From a virus: a DNA stretch of 24,323 nt. Every line of letters starts with the position of its first letter. The stretch's first letter is position 1. The stretch spans positions 1 through 24,323 of IMG/VR virus record IMGVR_UViG_3300037491_000131; one strand, given 5' to 3'. Below the pieces are notes generated by a model. The model worked only from the letters and a program-made list of their open reading frames with translations. It was not told where the DNA came from and did no database searches. Shown here piece after piece: positions 580 through 20,364 of the stretch. The position numbers and the translations under genes are program-made.

Positions 580-1044
580 ATGGCCAAATATGCAATCACC
601 GGAACCCAATCGGCGGTATCGACGGTGGCCTACAAGTCCGTTCTGTCGGTCGTCGCCAGCAGCGCCACCCAGGCGCGCCGCGGCAAGATCTTCGACGTGC
701 TGATCGGCACCAACGGCACGCCCGCCGACAACTACCTGCAATGGGACATCAGCCGCATCACCGCCGCCGGCACCAACACGGCGGTGACGCCGAACCCGCT
801 CGATCCGGCGGACGCCGCCGCGCTCGGGGTCGCCGGCAACAACCATACCGTCGAGCCGACCGTGACCGCGAACTCGTCGCTGTTCAACGTCGGCGTCAAT
901 CAGCGCGCGTCCTACCGCTGGGTGGCGGCGCCCGGATCCGAGCTGGTGTTTCCGGCCGTGAACAACAATGGGCTCGCCCTGCGCACGACCTCGGGCGGCT
1001 ACACCGGCTCGGCCACCGGCGACTTCATGTACGAGGAGCAGTGA
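580..1044 (+). CDS. Conserved phage virion-type protein, beta-rich, 154 aa
   Basis: The protein starts MAKYAITGTQSAVSTVAYK behind a GGAG ribosome binding site. It contains the stretch RGKIFDVLIGTNGTPADNY and later QRASYRWVAAPGSELVFPA, a pattern I associate with a conserved but uncharacterised protein of alpha- and betaproteobacterial phages. The composition (Thr, Ala, Asn, Gly and alternating hydrophobics, no Cys) suggests a compact beta-sandwich such as a decoration or tail-associated protein. It heads a rightward cluster with the zinc-ribbon protein and the tail fibre. Its stop codon TGA (1042-1044) is directly followed by a palindromic repeat. The structural role is inferred from composition and position. 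Confidence 0.75.
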   Translation: MAKYAITGTQSAVSTVAYKSVLSVVASSATQARRGKIFDVLIGTNGTPADNYLQWDISRITAAGTNTAVTPNPLDPADAAALGVAGNNHTVEPTVTANSSLFNVGVNQRASYRWVAAPGSELVFPAVNNNGLALRTTSGGYTGSATGDFMYEEQ

Positions 1045-1603: not shown

Positions 1604-2923
1604 ATGGCCACGGTGTTCGACCGCGCCGGCATGGCGACCACGACGACCGGCACGGGCACGCTCACGCTCGGCTCCTCGCTCGGCAACGTCAGCCCGAACC
1701 TCGCCGCCTTCATGAGTTTCGCCGCGGCCGGCGTCGCCAACGGACAATCGGTCCCCTATCTCATCCTCGACGCCAACAACAACTGGGAAGTCGGCATCGG
1801 GACTTACACGTCATCCGGCACGACGCTTTCTCGCTCGCCGCTATGGTCGTCCGCCGGGGCCGGAACGGCGATCAATCTCTCCGGCAACGCCCAGGTCTTC
1901 ATCACCGAGATCGCCGAGGACATCAATCAGGCCTCCTTCGGCGGCTGGCGCAACAAGTTCCGCAATCCGAACATGGATATCTGGCAGCGCGGCACGAGCT
2001 CGGTCACCGCCACCACTGCCGGCGCCTATGTTGCCGACGGCTGGATCGTCGTTCCGACCGGCGCCAGCTGCACCGCGGCCGCGGGCGGCCCGGAGGGGAA
2101 TGTCGCGGGATTCTACAGCGTCTATTATGCCCTTCAGGTCACCGGCGCGACCGGCGTCACGGATATCGTCATCCGGCAGCGCATCGAGTCCTATGTCGCC
2201 GCGCCATTGTCCGGCCAGACGGTCACCGTTCAGGCCGCCATTTACAACAACACGGGCGCAACGATCACGCCGGCCTTGACCGTCAAGCACGCCGGTTCGC
2301 AGGACAATTGGAGTTCGCCGACGACCGATGTGAACGCGGTCAGCCTGCAATCGTGCCCGAACGCGGCCTGGACGATCGTCGCCTATACGTTCGCCTGCTC
2401 GGCGTCCGCCTATAACGGCTTGGAGGTCGATTTCGACTTTGGCAACAATTTCAGCACCAATGCCAAATACGTGATGCTGGCGGCCGCCGACATCCGCGTC
2501 ACGTCCGGGGTCTCAACCGGGCTCAACAACAACCCGCCGCCGCCCGAGCTGCGGCCGATCGGCGCCGAAATGGCGCTCAATCAGCGCTACTTCAGAACGA
2601 GCTATCCGCAGGGAACGGCCCCCGGCGCGGTGACGACGGCCGGGCAGCGGCAGGTCTTTTTACAAGGCGGAGCCGCCAGCGCGGCGTGGATTTCCGGCGC
2701 CAGCGAACTCTTCGGCGCTCCTATGCGCGCCGCTCCATCCGTGACGCTCTACTCGCCGGCAACGGGAGCGAGCGGCAAGATTCGCGATGTGACGAATGGA
2801 GCCGATGTGACGGGGAGCACAACCGCGATCGGCGACAATTCATTCGTTTGGTTCGGGACGCTGAGCGCCGCAGCGACTTCGTATACCTTTGCCGTGCAAT
2901 ACACGGCAACCGCCGAACTATAG
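1604..2923 (+). CDS. Phage tail fibre / receptor-binding protein, 439 aa
   Basis: The N-terminal ~100 residues (MATVFDRAGMATTTTGTGTL, then NNWEVGIGTYTSSGTTLSRS) match the style of adaptor domains at the start of many tail fibres. From about residue 125 (FRNPNMDIWQRGTSS) a jelly-roll-like region follows, resembling carbohydrate-binding modules of fibres. It ends at about residue 330 with PELRPIGAEMALNQRYFR, a common fibre motif. The last ~90 residues form a small beta-rich tip. It would bind the host surface at the virion tail. A ribosome binding site (GAAGGGA) overlaps the end of the preceding gene. The final codons CTA TAG are palindromic, so its stop overlaps the stop of the leftward methyltransferase. 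The fibre call is confident; receptor specificity cannot be read. Confidence 0.85.
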   Translation: MATVFDRAGMATTTTGTGTLTLGSSLGNVSPNLAAFMSFAAAGVANGQSVPYLILDANNNWEVGIGTYTSSGTTLSRSPLWSSAGAGTAINLSGNAQVFITEIAEDINQASFGGWRNKFRNPNMDIWQRGTSSVTATTAGAYVADGWIVVPTGASCTAAAGGPEGNVAGFYSVYYALQVTGATGVTDIVIRQRIESYVAAPLSGQTVTVQAAIYNNTGATITPALTVKHAGSQDNWSSPTTDVNAVSLQSCPNAAWTIVAYTFACSASAYNGLEVDFDFGNNFSTNAKYVMLAAADIRVTSGVSTGLNNNPPPPELRPIGAEMALNQRYFRTSYPQGTAPGAVTTAGQRQVFLQGGAASAAWISGASELFGAPMRAAPSVTLYSPATGASGKIRDVTNGADVTGSTTAIGDNSFVWFGTLSAAATSYTFAVQYTATAEL

Positions 2924-3842: not shown

Positions 3843-5105
3843 ATGCCCGGCATCACCGGCCTGACCCAAACCGCCGTTGCCGCGCTCGTCCCGAGCACGA
3901 GCGGGCCGGTCACGCAATCGCGCTGGCACCAGCCGTGGTCGGAGCCGGTCCGTCAGCGCATCGGCCCGCAGCTCGCCGTCGCGCTGATCGCCTCGGGGCT
4001 CCGCTTCGTCGAAGCGCCGCCGTTCCAGGAGACGGTCACCGAGGATCGTTGGCATCAGCCGTGGTCGGAACCGGTGCGCACCCGCTGGCTTCCGCCGGCC
4101 GAGCAGCCGGCGCTGGCGCTGCAGCCCGCCCCGGGCGATCCCTACGGCTGGTTCGCGCCGCTCGCCGAACCGGTGCGCACGCGCTTTCTCGGCGTCGCGC
4201 ACCAGCAGGCCTTCGTTTCCGATCCGCAGCCGCGCGTTTCGTTTTCTTGGCTAAACTGGCTCAACGAGCCGGTCCGGATCAAATCGGCCCTGCTCGCCGG
4301 CGAGCAGCAGGTCGCGCCGTTCGACGAAGACATCATCTGGGCGGACCGCTGGTTCGCCTGGTGGTCGGAGCCGATCGTCAAGGCGAAGCCGCGGCTTGCC
4401 GAAGCGCTGCAGCAATACCTGGCCTTTGCGCCGCCGTTCTCGGCCGGTGCGGCGCAGTCGGAATGGGCGGGTCCGCCGCCGAGCCTGGTCCGCTTCCAGT
4501 ATCAGGTCGAGGCGCGGTCGCCCTGGCCGGATATCAACATCGGTTGGTACCTGCCGCTCACTGAGCCGGTGCGGATCAAGCCGGCCTTGCTGGCTGCGCT
4601 GCAGTCCTTCGAGGTCAGGTACGACGTCCTACCGCTGCCGTTCCTCGGTGGCGGCGGCGGATGGTATCTCCCGGACCCCACGCGACCGCCGGACGCACAT
4701 GGCGAACCCGAGCGGCGCAACCCCCGGGCTCTTCGACCCGGGGGCCGCGCGCCGCGCCAGGTCGAGGCGAAAACCGAGCCGCCGACCTTCGCCGAGACGA
4801 TCGCGGCGCAACAGCCGGCCCGGCTTGCCGATGTGCTCGGCTCGGCGTTCGCGCAGCGGCTCGGGCAACTCGCGCCGCCGGCGCTCGATCTCTACCTGCC
4901 GCCCGCCTCCGCGGTTGCGGCTTCGGCGGGCAAGCCGGCGGTCCCCGGGTCGAAGAGCCCGGGGATCGCGCCCGCGGTCATCGACGACATCCAGGATCGC
5001 CTCGACGCCATGGAGGCGCTGCGGGTGCTCGACGCACTGGAGCAGCAGCGGCGCGAGGAGTTGGTCATGCTGCTGCTGCATCTCGCTAACAGCGAACAGG
5101 CGTAA
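3843..5105 (+). CDS. W...EPVR repeat protein, phage structural candidate, 420 aa
   Basis: The first ~280 residues consist of imperfect repeats with the pattern W-x-x-P/W-L/W-x-E-P-V-R-x-K/R. The conserved Trp lies at residues 28, 70, 103, 136, 170, 208, 235 and 274, and the linkers are rich in Leu, Ala and Gln. The sixth and eighth copies are degraded. Residues ~281-310 are Arg/Pro-rich, followed by a Pro/Ala linker and a C-terminal helix or coiled coil (about 378-416, DDIQDRLDAMEALRVLDALE). I recall similar EPVR repeats in uncharacterised phage proteins but know no function. The position just before the scaffold and capsid genes suggests a virion or assembly protein. Two palindromes sit in the linker, and a Met at 4700 opens another frame (MANPSGATPGLFDPG), so an old frameshift near 4745 is possible. 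The ribosome binding site is weak (AGGACAGGT). Confidence 0.75.
   Translation: MPGITGLTQTAVAALVPSTSGPVTQSRWHQPWSEPVRQRIGPQLAVALIASGLRFVEAPPFQETVTEDRWHQPWSEPVRTRWLPPAEQPALALQPAPGDPYGWFAPLAEPVRTRFLGVAHQQAFVSDPQPRVSFSWLNWLNEPVRIKSALLAGEQQVAPFDEDIIWADRWFAWWSEPIVKAKPRLAEALQQYLAFAPPFSAGAAQSEWAGPPPSLVRFQYQVEARSPWPDINIGWYLPLTEPVRIKPALLAALQSFEVRYDVLPLPFLGGGGGWYLPDPTRPPDAHGEPERRNPRALRPGGRAPRQVEAKTEPPTFAETIAAQQPARLADVLGSAFAQRLGQLAPPALDLYLPPASAVAASAGKPAVPGSKSPGIAPAVIDDIQDRLDAMEALRVLDALEQQRREELVMLLLHLANSEQA
4721..4964. repeat. Pair of inverted CCCGGG palindromes inside a coding sequence
   Basis: CCCGGGCTCTTCGACCCGGG lies at about 4723-4742, and its exact reverse complement lies at 4944-4963. Each copy is also a short hairpin by itself (arms CCCGGG). 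Together they can pair over about 220 bases. Both fall in the linker of the EPVR repeat protein, at about residues 293-301 and 367-374. A related CCCCGGG hairpin is found inside the acetyltransferase gene at 18756-18779. Confidence 0.75.
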
Positions 5106-5138
5106 TCCAAATGAGCGAAGCGCCGCTCGGTGCCCTTA

Positions 5139-5332
5139 CCCTCCCCCTTGTGGGGAGGGTCGACCCGCATAGCCGGCGCTGCGCGCCGGCGTTCTTCATA
5201 GAAAAAAACGGGCGCGCGGAGCGCGCCCTATGGCGAAGCGAAGGCGGGTCGGGGTGGGGGTCGTTGTTTGTTTGCTCGATCGCGCCACCCCCACCCCTAA
5301 CCCCTCCCCACAAGGGGGAGGGGAACCGCGGC
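5139..5332. repeat. Long intergenic palindrome, CTCCCCCTTGTGGGGAGGG family
   Basis: The left end is a CCCTCCC/GGGAGGG hairpin and the right end is CCCCTCCCCACAAGGGGGAG, so the whole 190-base stretch folds back on itself. Inside are smaller hairpins, such as CGGCGC/GCGCCG near 5174 and GGGCGCGC/GCGCGCCC near 5210. The same family occurs at 18305-18478. It separates the EPVR repeat gene from the gene at 5341. Confidence 0.8.
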
Positions 5333-5340
5333 GCCGTGCC

Positions 5341-5760
5341 ATGACCCGCGACCCCGTCGTCTCCCTCGCCCTCGAGCGCGCGGCGCTGATCTCGGCCGAC
5401 ATCGAGGAGCAGCTCACGGCCCGCAACGAGCACGGCATGCGCCCGCTCGTTGCCGTGCTGGCCAAGGCGCGGCGCGAGGCGGCGGACGCCTTGGCGGCGC
5501 TGGTCGACGTGGATGCCAAACGCGTCGACGAGGTGCAGCGGCTGCAGCACCGCGTCTGGCGCTTCGCCGATCTCGTGCGCTGGCTGCAGGAGCTGACCGC
5601 CGACGGCCTCGATCGCCGCTACGAGGTGTCGGATGCCGAGCGCGACGAATTGGAGCGCCTGGTCGCGCCGGGCGACGACGAGGCGGCCGCCCACGCGGCC
5701 GATGAACTGGAACGGCTTGGCGTCACCACGCGCCCGGGCAACGGAAGGATGCATGCATGA
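5341..5760 (+). CDS. Small helical phage protein, 139 aa, unknown
   Basis: The protein starts MTRDPVVSLALERAALISAD and is almost entirely helical and charged, with heptad-like stretches (AKARREAADALAALVDVDAK, LQHRVWRFADLVRWLQEL). The frame stays open upstream through the palindrome to 5230, but those residues are repeat-encoded, and ATG 5341 directly follows the repeat. No strong ribosome binding site is seen next to this ATG; the nearest purine-rich run (GGGGGAGGGG) belongs to the palindrome. The stop overlaps the next start as ATGA (5757-5760), so it is co-translated with the scaffold-like gene. Its position suggests a head-assembly helper; no family is recognised. Confidence 0.7.
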   Translation: MTRDPVVSLALERAALISADIEEQLTARNEHGMRPLVAVLAKARREAADALAALVDVDAKRVDEVQRLQHRVWRFADLVRWLQELTADGLDRRYEVSDAERDELERLVAPGDDEAAAHAADELERLGVTTRPGNGRMHA

Positions 5761-7043
5761 CCACCGAGACGCCGGAACGCTCGCCGCTGCCGCCGGTCAA
5801 CCCCGCCGTGGCGGCTGCCGAAGCCGAGGCCTCGCGCGCGCTCGCGGCCGAGGCCGCGCCGGACAACCCGAATCCGCCGGCGGCAGATGCTCCACCTGCG
5901 CCGCAACCGGCGACCGAGGCGCCAGCGCCGGACGCCCCGAAGCCGCTTGAGCGCGTCACATCGTTCGACCGCGGCCGCGCCGACATCGCCGCCCGCTTCA
6001 AGGAAAAGCGCGCGGCCCAGGGCGGGCAGGTCGAGTTCCACGGCAATTTCCAGGACCCCTCGCAGACCTATGGTCCCTACGCCGGCCAGGGCGCGCCGGC
6101 CGAGCCGGAGCCGGGCGCTGCTCCAACCGAGACGCCCGCACCTTCGGCACCCGCGGCCGAAACCGCCACGCCAGCGGCCGCGTCAGCCCCAGCCCCGGAG
6201 GCGCCCCGCCTTGTCAAGGTGAAGGTGCACGGCGTCGAGATGCACATCCCCGAGGACCAGGTCATCGCCGAGGCGCAGAAGTCGCTCGCCGCCGGCAATC
6301 TGCTGGAGACCGCAAAGGACGTGCTGGCACTGTCGCGGCAGCCGGCACAGCCGCCCGATGGGCCCGATCCCTATGTCGAGCTGGCGCAGACCATCCAGCT
6401 CGAAGATGCCGCGGCGGCGGGCACGAAGCTCAAGCAGACGATCGAAGGCGAGACCGCCAAGGCGCGCCAGGAGGCGGCGCGCGAGGCGGCGCGCCAGGTG
6501 CGCCTCGAGACCGAGCTTTCCGCCTCGCAAAAGGCGATGGCGGCGTTCGAGAAGACGCATCCCGAGCTTGCCGCCGACGAGTTCGCCCGCGACGCCGTCA
6601 CCACCCAGGTGCAGCGCGAGATCAACGCCGACCTGCAAGCGGTGGTGGCGCAAGGCATCCTGAAAGAGCTGCCGCGCTCCCAGGACGAGCGCAACGGGCT
6701 GCATACGCAGCTGCGCGCCTTCGGCGCGCCGGTGCGGCCCATGACCGACATTTTCAACGCGGCGGGGACGAAATACGCGACATGGCGGGGCGGCACACCA
6801 GCGCCTCGTTCAGCGCCGCAGCCCGCGCCTGCGACGACTAGCACCCAACCGGCTGCCCAAGCCGCACCGCGAGTCGAGCTTTCGCCCGACCGCGCGCAAC
6901 GGCGGGCGGCCATTCCCACCCAACCGACTAACGGCACCGTGCCGCCGCGTGCGCCGGCGCTAAGCCCTGAGCAAACCACGGCTCAGCGGCGCAGCGCGGC
7001 CGTCATGGCGATGCGCAAGGCCCGCGGTCAGATTACCGCCTGA
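5757..7043 (+). CDS. Scaffold-like head assembly protein, 428 aa
   Basis: It lies directly upstream of the major capsid gene and has the build expected of a scaffolding protein. Residues 1-150 are Ala/Pro/Glu-rich and probably disordered. A small domain at about 155-195 (VKVKVHGVEMHIPEDQVIAE) is followed by a long charged helix (~210-265). A conserved C-terminal segment includes HPELAADEFARDAVTTQVQR and later FNAAGTKYATWRGG (~330-350). The tail is again Pro/Ala/Gln-rich and ends RSAAVMAMRKARGQITA, a basic helix that could bind the capsid shell. I recall this architecture from phages with N4-gp56-type capsids, where it is usually annotated as hypothetical. The scaffold role is inferred from position and composition. 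It overlaps the preceding gene by four bases. Confidence 0.7.
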   Translation: MTTETPERSPLPPVNPAVAAAEAEASRALAAEAAPDNPNPPAADAPPAPQPATEAPAPDAPKPLERVTSFDRGRADIAARFKEKRAAQGGQVEFHGNFQDPSQTYGPYAGQGAPAEPEPGAAPTETPAPSAPAAETATPAAASAPAPEAPRLVKVKVHGVEMHIPEDQVIAEAQKSLAAGNLLETAKDVLALSRQPAQPPDGPDPYVELAQTIQLEDAAAAGTKLKQTIEGETAKARQEAAREAARQVRLETELSASQKAMAAFEKTHPELAADEFARDAVTTQVQREINADLQAVVAQGILKELPRSQDERNGLHTQLRAFGAPVRPMTDIFNAAGTKYATWRGGTPAPRSAPQPAPATTSTQPAAQAAPRVELSPDRAQRRAAIPTQPTNGTVPPRAPALSPEQTTAQRRSAAVMAMRKARGQITA

Positions 7044-7053
7044 CGGGCGGGGC

Positions 7054-7142
7054 AATAGGGAATGGGGAGTGGGGAGTAGGAAGAGGCGCGGGCCAACCCG
7101 CTCGGCGCCCCCACTCCCCATTCCCCCATTCCCCACTCCCCG
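7054..7142. repeat. Intergenic palindrome, GGGGAGTGGGGAAT family
   Basis: A G-rich arm with repeated GGGGAGT/GGGAATG units is mirrored by a C-rich arm with ACTCCCC/CATTCCCC units, with a GC-rich loop between them. It lies between the scaffold-like gene and the major capsid gene, so any mRNA hairpin would sit directly ahead of the capsid leader. The same family occurs at 9032-9112. The G-runs could also form a G-quadruplex on one strand. Confidence 0.85.
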
Positions 7143-7178
7143 TTTCAGCGGTCATCAGCAAACAAAGGAACCTATCCC

Positions 7179-8165
7179 ATGGCAGGCCAGCTCTGGTCTG
7201 TCTCCGCGGAAGGCGGGTTCATGTATTCGGACGAGCTGTCCGACGTGCTCCGCCAGCAGGTCCAGCCGCTCACCAAATTCCGTCAGCTGTGCGACGCGAA
7301 GGACGGCAGCGAGAAGGGCCTCAACCGCGGCGACAAGTACCACTGGAACGTCTATTCGACGGTGGCGACGCAAGGTCGCCAGCTGCTCGAAACCGATCCG
7401 ATCCCGGAGTCGAACTTCACCGTCAGCCAGAAGACGCTGACGGTCAACGAGGCCGGCAACTCGATCCCCTATACCGGCAAGCTCTCGGATCTCGCCAAGC
7501 ACGACGTCGTGTCGATCCTCGACAAGACGCTCAAGGACGACGCGCGCAAGTATTTCGACATCGCCGCCCAGGCGCAGTTCAACAACTGCCAGCTGCGCGC
7601 GTCCACCGCGACCTCCACCACCTCCATCACCTTGGACACCAACGGCACGGCGTCGCAGACCAACAACGTCGCGCTCGGCACCGGCCACGTGAAGGCGATC
7701 GTCGACACGATGAAGGAGCGCAACATCCCGCCCTACATCGCCGACGACTACGTGGTGATCAGCCACCCGACCACCTACCGCAACTTCAAGAACCAGCTGG
7801 AGACGATCCACCAATACACCGAGACCGGCATCGTTTTCATCTTCAACGGCGAGGTCGGGCGCTACGAAAGCTGCCGCTTCATCGAGCAGACCTTCATCCC
7901 GAAAGGGGGAGCGGCGGACTCGAGCACCTGGGACCCGTACGGCGGCACCGCCGATGCCTGGGACAACGCGCAGTCGTCCTGGGCGTTCTTCATGGGCGGC
8001 GACACGGTCACCGAGGCGCTGTGCATCCCGGAGGAAATCCGGGCGAAGATCCCCGGCGACTTCGGCCGCTCCAAGGGCATCGCCTGGTACTACCTCGGCG
8101 GCTTCGGCCTCGTTCACGATGATGCCACCAACGGCCGCATCGTGAAGTGGGATTCGGCGGCGTGA
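7179..8165 (+). CDS. Major capsid protein, N4-gp56 family type, 328 aa
   Basis: The protein begins MAGQLWSVSAEGGFMYSDEL and continues SDVLRQQVQPLTKFRQLCD. This is the typical entry of N4-gp56-type major capsid proteins, with later signature-like parts GLNRGDKYHWNVYSTV, NEAGNSIPYTGKLSDLAK and ARKYFDIAAQAQFNNC. The central part (IADDYVVISHPTTYRNFK) and the end (KGIAWYYLGGFGLVHDD) fit the HK97-like fold of this family. The length (~330 aa) is normal, with no truncation. AAGGA lies nine bases before the ATG. It forms the head shell, probably with the upstream scaffold. Palindromes flank the gene on both sides (7054-7142 and 8170-8241). Confidence 0.92.
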   Translation: MAGQLWSVSAEGGFMYSDELSDVLRQQVQPLTKFRQLCDAKDGSEKGLNRGDKYHWNVYSTVATQGRQLLETDPIPESNFTVSQKTLTVNEAGNSIPYTGKLSDLAKHDVVSILDKTLKDDARKYFDIAAQAQFNNCQLRASTATSTTSITLDTNGTASQTNNVALGTGHVKAIVDTMKERNIPPYIADDYVVISHPTTYRNFKNQLETIHQYTETGIVFIFNGEVGRYESCRFIEQTFIPKGGAADSSTWDPYGGTADAWDNAQSSWAFFMGGDTVTEALCIPEEIRAKIPGDFGRSKGIAWYYLGGFGLVHDDATNGRIVKWDSAA

Positions 8166-8169
8166 GGGC

Positions 8170-8241
8170 CAGCGATCAGTAATCAGGGATCAGGGATCGG
8201 ACCTTTGTCTTGATCGTTGATCGCTGATGCCTGATCCCTGA
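8170..8241. repeat. Intergenic palindrome, ATCAG/GATCAGGG family
   Basis: AGCGATCAGTAATCAGGGAT at the left is mirrored by GATCGCTGATGCCTGATCCC at the right. It starts a few bases after the capsid stop and ends next to AGAAAGGA, the ribosome binding site of the following gene. Confidence 0.8.
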
Positions 8242-8255
8242 GAAAGGACACAACC

Positions 8256-9031: not shown

Positions 9032-9112
9032 GGGAGTGGGGAATGGGGAGTAGGGAATAGAGAGTAGCGAACTCCACTCCCCACTCCCCATTCCCCACTC
9101 CCCACTCTCCCT
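9032..9112. repeat. Intergenic palindrome, GGGGAGTGGGGAAT family
   Basis: This is a second copy of the family at 7054-7142. A G-rich arm (GGGAGTGGGGAATGGGGAGT) is followed by a C-rich mirror arm (CCACTCCCCACTCCCCATTC). It fills nearly the whole gap between two small genes. Confidence 0.85.
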
Positions 9113-9135
9113 CCCAACATCAGGAGAATCACCCC

Positions 9136-9444: not shown

Positions 9445-9529
9445 CAGGCATCAGGAAATCAGGGATCAGGCATCAGAACGCCGCACGGCGCTTGATCCTG
9501 ATCCCTGATGCCTGATCGCTGATCCCTGG
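9444..9529. repeat. Intergenic palindrome, ATCAGG family
   Basis: Units of GGCATCAGG, ATCAGGG and GGCATCAG are mirrored by CCTGAT and CTGATGCCTGAT units around a GC-rich loop (CGCCGCACGGCG). It starts at the stop codon of the previous gene and ends in CTGGAGC, the ribosome binding site of the next one, exactly as at 1044-1106. Confidence 0.85.
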
Positions 9530-9536
9530 AGCATCC

Positions 9537-10165: not shown

Positions 10166-11332
10166 ATGGCTTATTCGATGTCCTACACGTCGCTGATCGG
10201 CGACAAAAACACCGCAGGCTCGATCGCCCGCTGGGTGAACTACGCCAAGCTCGACGCCGATCAGATCCTGCAGGAGGCGCAGTCGCTGCTCTATTCCATG
10301 CTGCGCGTGCGGGAGATGCGCGCGCACTTTAACTTCAGCACGATCGTAGGGCAGGACCGCGTCGCGTTGCCGTCAGGCTTCCTCGATCCGATCGGCAAGA
10401 TCGCCATGCTCGGGACGGGAGCGAAGATCGAGCAGCGCTACCCGAACTTCATCCAGCGCCGCCGCACCTATACGGAGACGACGGGGAACCTCGGCAGCAA
10501 CCCGTTCACCACCAACAATCCTGGTCCCTTCGCGCTCATCGTCAACGTCAACCTGCCGAACCATGGCTTTTCCGACGGCTCTGTCTTCTTCACCACTGGC
10601 GCCATGGCGTTCAATGGGGTGACCATCGTCGGCACCTTCGACGTGGTCGCCCTCATCGATGCCAACAATTTCTGGATCGACATCACCCCGCTGGGAACGA
10701 CGCCGACGGCAGGCGGCAGCGGGGGAACGATCAGCGGCTCTGTCACCGCAACGTCGGCCGGGGCCGGCAACGTGATCCAATTGACGCTTGGCGCCGGCGA
10801 CGCGGCATCGGTGGCCGGGTTCACGAGTGGAAATACCGTCGTCGTGAACGGCGTCGGCGGGACGACCGAAGCGAACGGCACCTGGGTCATCGACGTCATC
10901 ATAAGCGGCGGTCTCGGCCGCATCAACCTGCGCGGCTCGACTTTCGTCCATAGCTGGACGTCCGGAGGAACGGTCACAACGACGGTTGCTTACATCTGCG
11001 ACAACCTCGTCCAGGGCATGCCGCTCCACTGGGGCGTGTGGGACGAGACCATCTTCTTCGACGTGGCGTTCAGCCAGCCGACCAACTGCAATCTGCAATA
11101 TTTCAGGTCACTGCCGATCCTCTCCGCGGCGAACCCGACCAACTTCCTCACCACCCGCTATCCGCACCTGCTGCGCAAGGCGTGCACCGCGCAGGCCTGG
11201 GATTTCCTGCGCAACAACACCGAATACCAGAAGGACGTGGCCGCGCTCACTGCGCTCGTCGAACAGACCAACGCGGAAGCTGATCTGCTCTACCGCGGGG
11301 CGGCGTTCGACACGTATCTGCATGATGAGTGA
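10166..11332 (+). CDS. Head-tail adaptor (connector) protein with inserted beta domains, 388 aa
   Basis: The N-terminal ~100 residues (SIARWVNYAKLDADQILQEA, then LLYSMLRVREMR) resemble adaptor or connector proteins that sit under the portal of short-tailed phages. The C-terminal helix (PHLLRKACTAQAWDFLRNNT) matches the other half of such a fold. Between them, about residues 113-280, lie two beta modules that resemble the FCCH-type domain often annotated in phage proteins: NHGFSDGSVFFTTGAMAFNG and GFTSGNTVVVNGVGG with GTWVIDV. The adaptor would join the portal ring to the nozzle protein encoded at 13040. The ribosome binding site is weak (AGGGCGG). The insertion makes the protein longer than simple adaptors (~200-250 aa). 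Confidence 0.75.
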   Translation: MAYSMSYTSLIGDKNTAGSIARWVNYAKLDADQILQEAQSLLYSMLRVREMRAHFNFSTIVGQDRVALPSGFLDPIGKIAMLGTGAKIEQRYPNFIQRRRTYTETTGNLGSNPFTTNNPGPFALIVNVNLPNHGFSDGSVFFTTGAMAFNGVTIVGTFDVVALIDANNFWIDITPLGTTPTAGGSGGTISGSVTATSAGAGNVIQLTLGAGDAASVAGFTSGNTVVVNGVGGTTEANGTWVIDVIISGGLGRINLRGSTFVHSWTSGGTVTTTVAYICDNLVQGMPLHWGVWDETIFFDVAFSQPTNCNLQYFRSLPILSAANPTNFLTTRYPHLLRKACTAQAWDFLRNNTEYQKDVAALTALVEQTNAEADLLYRGAAFDTYLHDE

Positions 11333-12745: not shown

Positions 12746-12878
12746 GCGTAGGGTGGGCAAAGCGGCGCGCAGCGCCGCGTGCCCACGCGTTCTTCGTCGC
12801 GCAATCCGCGTGCCCACGCGTTCTTCGTCGCGCAATCCGCGTGGGCACGGCGCTTTCGCGCCTTTGCCCACCCTACGG
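12746..12878. repeat. Intergenic palindrome, GTAGGGTGGGCAAAG family, with 31-bp tandem duplication
   Basis: The outer arms CGTAGGGTGGGCAAAG and TTTGCCCACCCTACG pair. Inside, a 31-base unit beginning GTGCCCACGCGTTCTTCG is repeated twice without a change, starting near 12779 and 12810. The duplication shows that the element is still changing by slippage or recombination. Confidence 0.88.
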
Positions 12879-17280: not shown

Positions 17281-17282
17281 CC

Positions 17283-17357
17283 AGTGATCAGTGATCAGTA
17301 ATCAGACCAGCGTTCGGTAGTCAGAGGCTCATTCTGATCACTGATTACTGATTACTG
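17283..17357. repeat. Intergenic palindrome, ATCAGTGATCAG family
   Basis: CAGTGATCAGTGATCAGTAA at the left is mirrored by TGATCACTGATTACTGATTA at the right. It lies exactly between the stop codons of two convergent genes (17280 and 17358), so it may act as a two-way terminator. Confidence 0.85.
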
Positions 17358-17873
17358 TTACGCGGCCATGCCGACTGACGAACCCTGCGCTTCGCGCAGC
17401 AGCTTGGTGCGGATCGCGTGCTCGATGTTGCGGAGCGCCGCTTCCGCCTCGAGCGAGCGCGCCTCGGCCGCCTGCGCGCGCGCTTCCGCGGCGGCCGCCT
17501 CGGACTCGGCGGCGGCGATGCGCGCCTCGGCGCGCCTGAGCGCCTCGACCGCTTCCTGTAGCCGCGCCGCGGTGTCGGCGATCGCCTCCCGGTGCGCCGT
17601 TTCGGCCGCCTGGATGCGCGCTTCCGCCGCGTGCAGCTTCTCGATCGCGCCGCGCACCAGCGATTTCGCCCGCGCCTCCGTGTCGTTGGCGCGCTCCTCG
17701 ATGTCGTTGATGGCGTCGGCGGCCTGATAGACCAGCTCGAGCGCGGCGGCGCCGCGGCTCTTCGCCGGACCTTGCGGCGGCCGCTCCAGGTTGACGACGT
17801 TGCGCGGCGCGCCGGGCGCGCGGCCGAATTGATCGCGCACGGGCCGGCGCGGCCAGTTGGGGTCCTGGGACAT
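17358..17873 (-). CDS. Alanine-rich coiled-coil protein, 171 aa, host-like
   Basis: After a basic, Pro-rich N-terminus (MSQDPNWPRRPVRDQFGRAP), residues ~45-155 form an almost unbroken Ala/Glu/Arg coiled coil with heptad character (AEARIQAAETAHREAIADTA, AESEAAAAEARAQAAEARSL). The C-terminal piece (NIEHAIRTKLLREAQGSS) is a separate short helix. Similar small coiled-coil proteins are encoded in Bradyrhizobium-like chromosomes without known function. The start at 17873 has GAAAGGG upstream. It is convergent with the XRE gene. A structural or scaffolding role is possible but not shown. Confidence 0.7.
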   Translation of the reverse strand: MSQDPNWPRRPVRDQFGRAPGAPRNVVNLERPPQGPAKSRGAAALELVYQAADAINDIEERANDTEARAKSLVRGAIEKLHAAEARIQAAETAHREAIADTAARLQEAVEALRRAEARIAAAESEAAAAEARAQAAEARSLEAEAALRNIEHAIRTKLLREAQGSSVGMAA

Positions 17874-18016: not shown

Positions 18017-18283
18017 ATGAAACCCATCGCCCTGCCGCCGGTGCCGCCGGGCTCCGATCCGGCCGCCCAGTTCGCCTGGATCAAGGCCTGCCTGCAGCAG
18101 ATCGAGCGGGCGTCCCAGGAAGAGCCGGCGCAGATTTTCGACAGCTATTCGACGGATGCAACGCCAACCGCCACGAGGCAGCTCCTTGTCACGTCGCCGA
18201 CGCAAGCGAACATCGTCGCCGTCCTCGCCACCCTCATCGCCGATTTCCGCGCCCGCGGCGTCAAGCGAATGGGGCCGACCTGA
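18017..18283 (+). CDS. Small conserved phage protein, 88 aa
   Basis: The protein begins MKPIALPPVPPGSDPAAQFA and continues WIKACLQQIERASQEEPAQI, a start I recall from small proteins in short-tailed and rhizobial prophages. A Thr/Ala-rich middle is followed by a helix (QANIVAVLATLIADFRARG). No Cys or membrane helix is present. The purine-rich GGAG before the ATG lies about ten bases upstream. It marks the resumption of phage-type genes after the host-like island. Function unknown. Confidence 0.7.
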   Translation: MKPIALPPVPPGSDPAAQFAWIKACLQQIERASQEEPAQIFDSYSTDATPTATRQLLVTSPTQANIVAVLATLIADFRARGVKRMGPT

Positions 18284-18304
18284 CGAGCACACTCGCGCCA
18301 CAGC

Positions 18305-18478
18305 GCTCCCTCCCCCCTTGTGGGGGAGGGATGGGGAGGGGGGTGGCGAGATGGCGCGCGACAACAACGACCCCCACCCCGGCGCCTGCGGCGCCGACCC
18401 TCCCCAAGTTGTCGATCCGTCGCGAGCGCAGTCCGCGACGGATCGGAAGAAGCTGGGGGAGGGTGGAGCAGGGGCGCG
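18305..18478. repeat. Long palindrome, CTCCCCCTTGTGGGGGAGGG family
   Basis: The left end is a CTCCCCC/GGGGGAG hairpin and the right end AAGCTGGGGGAGGGTGGAGC mirrors it over 170 bases. A hairpin with arms GATCCGTCGCG and CGCGACGGATC at 18415-18445 is nested inside, which suggests that one element was inserted into another. The right half lies within the N-terminal part of the acetyltransferase frame. Confidence 0.8.
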
Positions 18479-18944
18479 AGCACAGCGAACAATTCGCGCC
18501 GCGGACAGCGACGCCGACGCACTTGCCATCCATCGTTTCCTCGCCACCGTGGCGACGCCGGTGCTCCATTGTGCGATCAATCCTGCGAAGTCGCTCGCCG
18601 AGGTGCGCCGCGTCGTCACCGATCGTGACTACGGCTTTGCCCTCATGGCGCTCGAGCGCGATGCCCTCGTCGGCACCATCGGGGCGATCTTCGTGCCGTG
18701 GTGGTACGGCGACGATCACTTCTTCACCGACCGCTGGTTCTTCGCGCTGCCGCGGTCCCCGGGCACTTCGTCCCGGGGATGGGCCGGTCCGCGATTGCTG
18801 GCCGAGGCCGACGCGGTCGCGCGCGAGGTCGGCGTGCCGCTGATCGTGAACTTGAAACAGCGGCGCACCACGGCCGCGGTGACCTTCGTCAAGCCGGTGG
18901 TGTTGGGCGTGGACCATCGCGCCACCCACTCGACGTCATCCTGA
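18351..18944 (+). CDS. GNAT-like acetyltransferase altered by palindromic elements, 197 aa
   Basis: From about residue 46 the protein reads like a phage GNAT protein: TIRAADSDADALAIHRFLAT, then LHCAINPAKSLAEVRRVVT and VPWWYGDDHFFTDRWFFALP. A helix (AGPRLLAEADAVAREVGVPL) and a last strand follow. Residues 1-45 are encoded by a palindromic repeat and have no domain character. No ATG or GTG closer to the domain is in frame, so ATG 18351 (GGAGGGG upstream) is used. A second element inserts SPGTSSRG at residues 136-143, just where the acetyl-CoA loop (Q/RxxGxG/A) is expected; only GWAGPRLL remains there. The end (THSTSS) and stop lie in a third repeat. Substrate unknown; activity may be lost. Confidence 0.65.
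   Translation: MARDNNDPHPGACGADPPQVVDPSRAQSATDRKKLGEGGAGARAQRTIRAADSDADALAIHRFLATVATPVLHCAINPAKSLAEVRRVVTDRDYGFALMALERDALVGTIGAIFVPWWYGDDHFFTDRWFFALPRSPGTSSRGWAGPRLLAEADAVAREVGVPLIVNLKQRRTTAAVTFVKPVVLGVDHRATHSTSS
18756..18779. repeat. CCCCGGG palindrome inside the acetyltransferase gene
   Basis: The arms TCCCCGGG (18756-18763) and CCCGGGGA (18772-18779) surround CACTTCGT. The 24 bases keep the reading frame and code for SPGTSSRG. Related CCCGGG hairpins are inside the gene at 3843 and in the cluster at 16244. Confidence 0.75.
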
Positions 18945-19050
18945 GGTGCGACCCCGGCCTTGAGCCGGGGGAGCCTCGAAGGATGGAAGCACGCACGGAG
19001 CAAGCTTCCACCCTTCGAGGCGCGCCTGCGGCGCGCACCTCAGGGTGACG
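18934..19050. repeat. Intergenic palindrome, CATCCTGAGGTGCG family
   Basis: CGTCATCCTGAGGTGCG at the left is mirrored by CGCACCTCAGGGTGACG at the right, with inner CCTCGAAGG/CCTTCGAGG arms and an inner GCTTCCA/TGGAAGC pair. It supplies the last codons and the stop of the acetyltransferase gene. The same family is at 9998-10149. Confidence 0.85.
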
Positions 19051-19063
19051 GCGGAGCGGGTTG

Positions 19064-19318
19064 AGCGGCCAACAGTCCGATCTCTCCATAGCGGCCGCGC
19101 GCTGCCGGGGCATCAAAAACCAAGCGCGCCGGCGAGCGCGGCAGAGTCTAAAGCGGCAGTCCACTCTCTCCACCGCGGCCGCCCGCTGCCCGCGCATGCA
19201 AAACCAAGCGCGCGGGCGAGGGCGGCAGGAGTCCAAAGCGGCAGTCCACTCGCGCCACAGCGGCCGCGCGCTGCCGGCGCATCAAAAACCAAGCGCGCCG
19301 GCGAGCGCGGCAGGGACA
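19064..19318. repeat. Three tandem ~86-bp repeats ahead of an ejection-type gene
   Basis: Units start at about 19064, 19152 and 19237, each with AGCGGC at the left. Each unit carries a GCGGCCGC-type motif, the core GCATCAAAAACCAAGCGCG (GCATGCAAAACC in unit two) and a GAGCGCGGCAG-like right end. The right end can pair with the GCTGCCGG region to form a hairpin. The next gene begins in GGGACATCAAAATG, which looks like the start of a fourth core. A single related copy is at 1381-1429. On the minus strand the units code for a repeated Arg-rich peptide that I regard as incidental. Confidence 0.88.
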
Positions 19319-19323
19319 TCAAA

Positions 19324-20364
19324 ATGTGCTTCGGCATGCAGGCGACGCAACAACAGACGAACACGCCCTCGCCGTTCGTCCAGGGCGCGGGGCAGACCGC
19401 GTTCAACTTCGCCCAGAATCTCGCCACGTCGCCGTTCGATGCGCCGTTGCAGGGAGTGGCCGGATTCACGCCGCAGCAGAGCCAGGCCTTCTCCCAGATC
19501 GGCAACCTCGCCAACGCGCCCAACGCCAACAATCCGTTCTATTCGACCATCGCCAACGATTACGCCAATTACGGCGCGGCGCCGGCCGCGACGATCACTG
19601 CGCCGAGCGTGCTCGGCGGCGGCGTCGACCCGACGACGGCTGGTCTTGGCGCCTATATCGACCCGAACCTGCAGCTCGAGCTCAACCCGACCCTGGCGGA
19701 GATCACGCGCCAGGCCGACATCGCCAAGACCGGTCCGGGCGGCGTCGGCGCGGCGGCGACCGCGGCGGGCGCCTTTGGCGACGCGCGCCAGGGGGTGGAG
19801 AACGCCAACGTCGACGAAGCGGCCATGCGCCAAGCGGCGCAGGCGACCGGACAGGCCTATCAGAACGCGTTCCAGAACGCCGCCAACCTGCGCGGCATCG
19901 ACCTGTCCAACTTGATGAATGTCCAGTCCGCCAATGCGGCGCTGCGCCAGCAGCAATTGCAGAACATGCTCGGCTCCGGCAACGCGCTCACCAACCTGGC
20001 GCAATACACCACCGGAACGGGCCTCAACCTCGCCCAGGCGCTGGGCCAGGCCGGCACCCAGCAGCAGCAGCTGGCGCAGCAGCAGCTCGGCAATCGCTAC
20101 AACCAGCAGCTCCAGGACCTGCTCGGGCCCTATCAGTATCAGCTGCCGGCGCTCAACTCGACGCTGTCGGCGCTGACCCCGTCGCAGCCGTCGACCCAGA
20201 CCATCCAGCAGCCGAACAACGCCGGATGGCAGCTCGCCGGCGCGCTCGGCGGCGCCTTGTTCGGCGGGCTCGGCACCGGCTTCGGCCAGGGCGTGGGGCT
20301 CGGGGCCTTCGGCAACCTGTTCGGCAGCGGCAAGGCCGGTGGCCAGTTCATGCAGAACGATTGA
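19324..20364 (+). CDS. Putative internal virion / DNA ejection protein, 346 aa
   Basis: The protein starts MCFGMQATQQQTNTPSPFVQ, then QGAGQTAFNFAQNLATSPFD. The middle is an Ala/Gln/Asn-rich helical region (GAFGDARQGVENANVDEAAM, RQAAQATGQAYQNAFQNAAN, LGQAGTQQQQLAQQQLGNRY). It ends with a glycine-rich hydrophobic segment (GWQLAGALGGALFGGLGTGF) that could insert into membranes. This build is usual for ejection or internal core proteins of short-tailed phages, which leave the virion with the DNA. AGGGA precedes the ATG by about eight bases. It is followed at 21 bases by a second protein of similar type. The class is inferred from composition and context; homology was not tested. Confidence 0.7.
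   Translation: MCFGMQATQQQTNTPSPFVQGAGQTAFNFAQNLATSPFDAPLQGVAGFTPQQSQAFSQIGNLANAPNANNPFYSTIANDYANYGAAPAATITAPSVLGGGVDPTTAGLGAYIDPNLQLELNPTLAEITRQADIAKTGPGGVGAAATAAGAFGDARQGVENANVDEAAMRQAAQATGQAYQNAFQNAANLRGIDLSNLMNVQSANAALRQQQLQNMLGSGNALTNLAQYTTGTGLNLAQALGQAGTQQQQLAQQQLGNRYNQQLQDLLGPYQYQLPALNSTLSALTPSQPSTQTIQQPNNAGWQLAGALGGALFGGLGTGFGQGVGLGAFGNLFGSGKAGGQFMQND

Follow-up and report, generated by a model that had tools for sequence, protein, structure and literature searches.

A family of 96 distinct proteins from uncultivated phage contigs carries a tryptophan-centered motif that recurs about every 37 residues, has a core kept by selection, and is encoded by genes linked to a small conserved companion gene. 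The starting point was one gene in a virus record stretch of 24,323 nt, which was analyzed at its full length and is called the window here; the loci of relatives carry L-numbers. Both the repeat protein family and the companion family appear to be unnamed. Tentatively, we favor the reading that the repeat protein is a virion-associated and mostly unfolded multivalent tether, the Trp motifs of which would dock on a virion partner and mount receptor-binding parts.

The Trp-repeat protein and its family

The ORF found in the window is a real protein under purifying selection. Its frame is open and correct, and its start is kept in relatives. Four relatives (L003, L004, L006, and L041) align over the full length with 56 to 74% identity to the window protein and give dN/dS values of 0.35 to 0.56 against it. 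The pattern W.....EP[VI] occurs six times, at residues 28, 70, 103, 136, 170, and 235, as compared to a mean of 0.012 and a maximum of 1 in 20,000 shuffles, and a repeat profile recovered exactly the same six copies. A sequence-only reading of the DNA had counted eight repeats, which were said to share W-x-x-P-x-x-E-P-V-R at a spacing of 27 to 42 residues. The repeat is real and every Trp is where that reading placed it; however, there are six copies and not eight, the exact motif is restricted to four of them (residues 28, 70, 103, and 235), and the measured spacings are 42, 33, 33, 34, and 65. The copies at 136 (WLNWLNEPVR) and 170 (WFAWWSEPIV) are variants. The Trp at 208 belongs to a second type of box (WAGPPPSLVRFQYQ), the pattern of which is rarer than the repeat and present in 7 of the 96 family members, and the Trp at 274 (WYLPDPTRPP) is no repeat copy but a single site, shared by the near relatives L003 and L041. 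The coordinates of these features and of the neighboring genes are collected in Table 1.

Table 1. Features of the window discussed in the text, in order of position.
Feature	Position	Strand	Basis
Companion gene, small conserved protein (NQRASYRWVAAPGSE)	580..1044	+	linked to repeat gene across phages
Tail-fiber gene, phrog_4492	1604..2923	+	E 5.5e-25; between companion and repeat gene
Methyltransferase, PF13489	2918..3799	-	between tail-fiber gene and repeat gene
Trp-repeat array protein, 420 aa	3843..5105	+	open frame, conserved start, dN/dS 0.35-0.56 vs four relatives, 96-member family
Repeat core 1, WHQPWSEPVR, residues 28-37	3924..3953	+	motif and profile match
Repeat core 2, WHQPWSEPVR, residues 70-79	4050..4079	+	motif and profile match
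Repeat core 3, WFAPLAEPVR, residues 103-112	4149..4178	+	motif and profile match
Repeat core 4, WLNWLNEPVR, residues 136-145	4248..4277	+	motif and profile match
Repeat core 5, WFAWWSEPIV, residues 170-179	4350..4379	+	motif and profile match
Second-type box, WAGPPPSLVRFQYQ, residues 208-221, not a repeat copy	4464..4505	+	aligned in L003, L004, L006
Repeat core 6, WYLPLTEPVR, residues 235-244	4545..4574	+	motif and profile match
C-terminal helix (predicted), residues 382-417	4986..5093	+	AlphaFold2 10-residue blocks, pLDDT 83-98
Small conserved downstream gene	5341..5760	+	near-relative homologues; start inferred from relatives (listed ORF 5230-5760)
Ala/Pro-rich protein directly 5' of capsid gene	5757..7043	+	scaffold by position only
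Major capsid protein	7179..8165	+	phrog_1357, E 6.6e-17; PF13252
SU10-type adaptor	10166..11332	+	PF24175, E 4.7e-11
Nozzle protein, 613 aa	13040..14881	+	phrog_3287, E 1e-42

Scanning IMG/VR with the window protein returned 31 loci, one of which (L002) encodes an identical protein, and 73 distinct loci, on contigs partly shared with the first scan, came from a search with 30 aligned repeats. The total of 96 includes the proteins found beside the companion gene. Members have 83 to 1,333 residues and 1 to 21 repeats (median 6), and 85 of them are complete ORFs. The motif consensus is W-H-Q-P-[WL]-S-E-P-V-R-x-[KR], and the repeat period has a median of 37 residues with quartiles of 35 and 39, based on the 367 of 473 spacings that are below 60 residues. 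The Arg of the core is present in 163 of 166 seeds; the Glu and Pro are fixed by the seed pattern itself. Outside the core, positions L+14, A+16, and Q+19 are conserved, and inserts interrupt the repeats in several members. None of 1,816 reversed or shuffled proteins matched the profile at E 0.001.

Between the copies within one protein, pN/pS is 0.30 for SEPVR, 0.43 for the whole motif, and 0.88 for the linkers. Synonymous sites between copies are saturated (0.69–0.74) and TRF detected no DNA tandem array in the repeat ORFs of the window or L024, which together argue that the repetition is kept by selection and is not the result of recent duplication. Conservation of the motif also exceeds that of the linkers in all four comparisons of the close relatives with the window. 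These relatives contain 4, 4, 5, and 6 repeats, respectively, versus 6 in the window, and in the alignment the differences are in-frame gaps at repeat positions.

Seven contigs (L013, L044, L049, L060, L062, L075, and L101) encode two or three repeat genes, and the second one of L013 is minimal, with one repeat plus box and tail. The scan of genome contigs added L033, a true member on a contig filed under a Patescibacteria MAG. L034 and L035 were rejected as members since they encode membrane-like proteins that have only SWHQPWSEPV in common with the family.

Beyond the array, a short N-terminal 'FQYQ-KTEP' or 'IYP' box was found by pattern in 41 of the 96 members and a common C-terminal tail by profile in 66. 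The window clade lacks this tail, and the window protein ends in a predicted helix (residues 382–417) instead. In 17 of the 96, the first repeat starts only after 120 or more residues. Ten of these long-N-terminus members were scanned in Pfam and two gave domains above the cut-off, a LamG domain in L102 (PF13385, E 1.5e-11) and a Gly_rich_2 domain in L093 (PF21722, E 1.7e-6); Gly_rich_2 in L097 fell below it. The LamG-like domain is a separate gene in L016 and L021, and the Gly-rich domain is a separate gene immediately 5' of the repeat gene in L008, L011, L017, and L030. Some family members resemble phage tail proteins with Gly_rich_2 or LamG domains by carrying these domains N-terminally, whereas the window protein has neither and the repeat array itself matches no fiber family. 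No fused fiber, lectin, or other receptor-binding domain was recognized in the window protein with PHROGs or Pfam. In L023 (11703–11963) and L029 (7347–7592), a short gene of its own encodes this C-terminal tail, and in both a tail-fiber-type gene lies between the array and the tail gene.

AlphaFold2 models of the window protein and a four-repeat relative had a mean pLDDT of 51.8 and 50.4, with 22 and 27 sequences, respectively. These low-confidence models look unfolded, and the C-terminal helix is the only confidently predicted part of the window protein. Shallow alignments, rather than disorder, may be the cause of the poor models. A Foldseek search with the window model gave no match up to E 0.001 (best 1.0).

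The view that the repeat has no described family held up in the curated libraries, solved structures, and named phages that we searched, and profile searches gave no link to a nonstructural family, with a few weak single-member rows in Pfam and NCBIfam. The window protein had no PHROGs match at E 0.001 and none at the Pfam cut-off. Nothing of substance was found for 22 members in Pfam (two single-member rows) or for 27 members in NCBIfam (one weak row); the Med12, Vts1, MORC2, and pantothenate-kinase rows each come from a single member and were interpreted as compositional. Five members searched against PHROGs gave one row, for L007 (E 9.4e-6), in which no single stretch passed alone; it was not recovered in eight records including that of L007 itself. 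The leads phrog_10118 and phrog_19867 were dropped, with none of eight records matched. PDB profile searches with the repeat alignment yielded weak, unrelated rows and no solved relative. In 50,697 named phage records, tblastn with the window protein and the proteins of L007, L190, L158, and L090 found no match. A Vibrio phage JSF39 match to a 28-residue consensus (E 0.2) runs antisense to the annotated gene and was considered chance. The search of 398 Pseudomonadota genomes with queries A1 and A4 (E 1e-5 and 1e-8) gave no match and, having no positive control, is uninformative. A literature text search did not return the WSEPVR motif, and the uses of SEPVR there are unrelated. Among the matches listed for EPVR with phage, all were unrelated as judged by title, and searches for Trp-repeat, linear-motif, or Gly-rich tail-fiber literature found nothing relevant.

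The companion gene and the gene neighborhood

In the window the gene order is companion, tail fiber, methyltransferase (on the opposite strand), repeat gene, small gene, possible scaffold, capsid, adaptor, and nozzle. The sequence-only reading had assigned the repeat gene to the head module, which is half right, as the gene sits between a tail-fiber gene (phrog_4492) and the major capsid region (phrog_1357). The profile of the nozzle family matches the solved phage chains 9nwi_Y, 8zkm_E, and 8zkk_O, the latter two of which are named nozzle. Most relatives have the order capsid, several small genes, companion, fiber-type genes, repeat gene, a 95-residue gene, two SU10-type adaptors, and nozzle; a PDB profile search with the 95-residue gene 3' of the array gave only weak unrelated rows. 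In L090 the companion-repeat pair is placed after a tape-measure gene and before a phrog_4492 tail fiber, and L094, which has a homologue of the L090 tape measure, shows the same order. As read from sequence, the pair lies between head genes and connector-like genes in L056 and 5' of a terminase-like gene in L020. With head genes nearby in some phages and a tape measure ahead of it in others, the pair stays together while its surroundings change.

The companion protein has 11 invariant columns in 32 sequences and is encoded by 195 stretches in IMG/VR. It has no Pfam family and no convincing PHROG, and a PDB profile search with its alignment gave only weak unrelated rows. A comparison with the protein encoded after the capsid gene showed no relation. 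Among repeat ORFs with at least three upstream genes, the companion is upstream of 46 of 59 and missing from the fetched stretch in the other 13. In the reverse direction, 57 companion loci had 4 kb or more of downstream sequence, and 42 of them carried a repeat ORF; the figure was 34 of 47 after removal of near-identical companions, and only 12 of 25 for the non-redundant contigs outside the reach of the motif searches. All 50 repeat ORFs beside a companion are on the same strand and 49 are downstream, at a median distance of 1,720 bp. The linkage may be partly inherited synteny.

Judged by eye, at least six of the 15 companion loci scored as negative (L158, L159, L168, L176, L183, and L190) contain diverged Trp repeats of the W..P.SQP..R or W.P.YPDR type. 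The W.P.YPDR repeats of L176 (12665–13270), L183 (13844–14338), and L190 (15191–16588) lie 3' of the companion in proteins with a similar QYQ N-terminal box and probably represent a sister repeat family. One named phage record, MW202566.1, encodes a companion homologue, the hypothetical protein UOF78683.1, with 46.5% identity over 66% of the query; the searched 32.3 kb of this record contained no Trp-repeat gene.

Possible roles of the repeat array

A short selected core, evenly spaced along an apparently unfolded chain, looks like a multivalent docking tether, and it is on this pattern that our tentative preference is based. The long chain would have little fold of its own and would bear a Trp docking motif about every 37 residues. 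The Trp of each motif would insert into a pocket on a partner in the virion, for which the companion product or the base of a tail fiber is the likeliest candidate, and one chain could thereby hold several copies of the partner. The ends of the chain would mount receptor-binding parts on the particle, by way of the helix in the window protein, the small tail domain in most relatives, and the lectin-like or Gly-rich domain in some. Copy number would then set reach and avidity and not ring symmetry. It counts against a tether that the window protein has neither a fused receptor-binding domain nor the common C-terminal tail.

A repeat unit that folds could account equally well for the regular period of 37 residues. 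Units of this kind might stack into a fiber shaft or spacer and act as a ruler for the distance of the distal domain, which would fit a period that stays tight while the linkers drift, and also the conserved positions beyond the core. We consider such a spacer unlikely given that AlphaFold2 yields no fold, that neither a solved relative nor a fold match at E 0.001 was obtained, and that inserts break the repeats in several members. The least unlikely of the alternatives is a host-surface adhesin, an extended arm along which every repeat would be a small unit that binds glycan or envelope, with a gain in avidity for the host surface. The repeat gene sits among tail-fiber and LamG-type genes, some members are fused to LamG lectin-like or Gly-rich domains, copy number is variable, and exposed Trp and Arg are common in sugar binding. 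However, receptor contacts usually diversify and the motif core is nearly constant across very different phages, and the neighboring genes already supply adhesive domains.

That the protein is an assembly aid, an ejected protein, or a host-takeover factor lying by chance in a structural region seems quite improbable. The window protein itself has no fiber domain, which fits such a role, but the LamG and Gly-rich fusions within the family and the persistent location beside fibers, adaptor, and nozzle speak against it. The sequence-only reading had proposed that every repeat could bind one subunit of the capsid or tail, and that the number of repeats might mirror a ring or spike symmetry. The array does have the look of a multivalent binder and lies in a virion-structural region, near head genes in the window; binding to the capsid in particular would be less probable because the repeat gene of L090 and L094 is in the tail module behind the tape measure. 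A match to symmetry is very improbable, since copy number varies freely. Family members have anywhere between 1 and 21 copies without favoring any value (multiples of 3 account for 27 of the 85 complete ORFs), and close relatives have 4 to 6.

As a tether, the repeat protein would work by a variant of Trp-mediated fiber docking, for which the nearest precedent, and not a homologue, appears to be the three-Trp dock loop of phage SU10. In the passages of the SU10 report that deal with the fiber dock (PMC9509320), Trp839, Trp847, and Trp857, which lie in a loop of the nozzle, touch one subunit each of the trimeric short tail fiber. Judged against those passages, both systems repeat Trp along a stretch of polypeptide, and the window phage, like SU10, has an SU10-type adaptor (PF24175) and a nozzle protein. 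In contrast, the SU10 dock forms a loop inside the nozzle beta-propeller protein, with Trp residues 8 to 10 apart (PMC9509320), whereas the repeat protein is an ORF separate from its nozzle gene, has Trp spacings of 33 to 65 in the window with a family median of 37, and features a conserved SEPVR core. As neither the nozzle location nor the 8 to 10 residue spacing applies, we do not claim membership in this dock type. The window nozzle has only 613 residues, so a loop at the SU10 residue numbers is impossible; another site could serve.

A broader proposal, which we regard as doubtful, is that tailed phages possess a portable docking system made up of two parts, the companion and the Trp-repeat gene. 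The first would encode a small conserved receptor on the particle and the second a ligand chain of programmable valency with swapped host-recognition domains, in a cassette that moves between the head and tail modules of otherwise different phages, with a logic comparable to that of cohesin and dockerin. If true, uncultured phages would have a general mechanism, not yet described, for attaching variable receptor-binding parts to the particle through repeated short motifs, with copy number tuning the valency. It would account for a large set of genes that lack annotation, help to predict the host-recognition modules of metagenomic phages, and make a short natural peptide available as a tag for phage-particle display. 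Should the mechanism prove wrong, the repeat profile and the companion still define two easily recognized families for which no name was found.

Other repeated elements in the window DNA

The window also contains intergenic runs of approximately 7-nt repeats of the TGATCCC and CCCCATT types, at 1044–1112, 7108–7148, 8208–8246, 9032–9115, 9445–9534, and 17282–17361. Such runs seem unusual for a phage and resemble chromosomal intergenic repeats. Palindromic CCCTCCCCCTTGTGGGGAGGG-type elements lie between genes at 5130–5345 and about 18200–18500; we take them to be of a kind present in alphaproteobacterial chromosomes, possibly a clue to the host group. A perfect tandem repeat of 31 nt was observed at 12775–12843, and an 85-nt unit in three copies (19060–19313) is located at the start of the frame 19045–20364.
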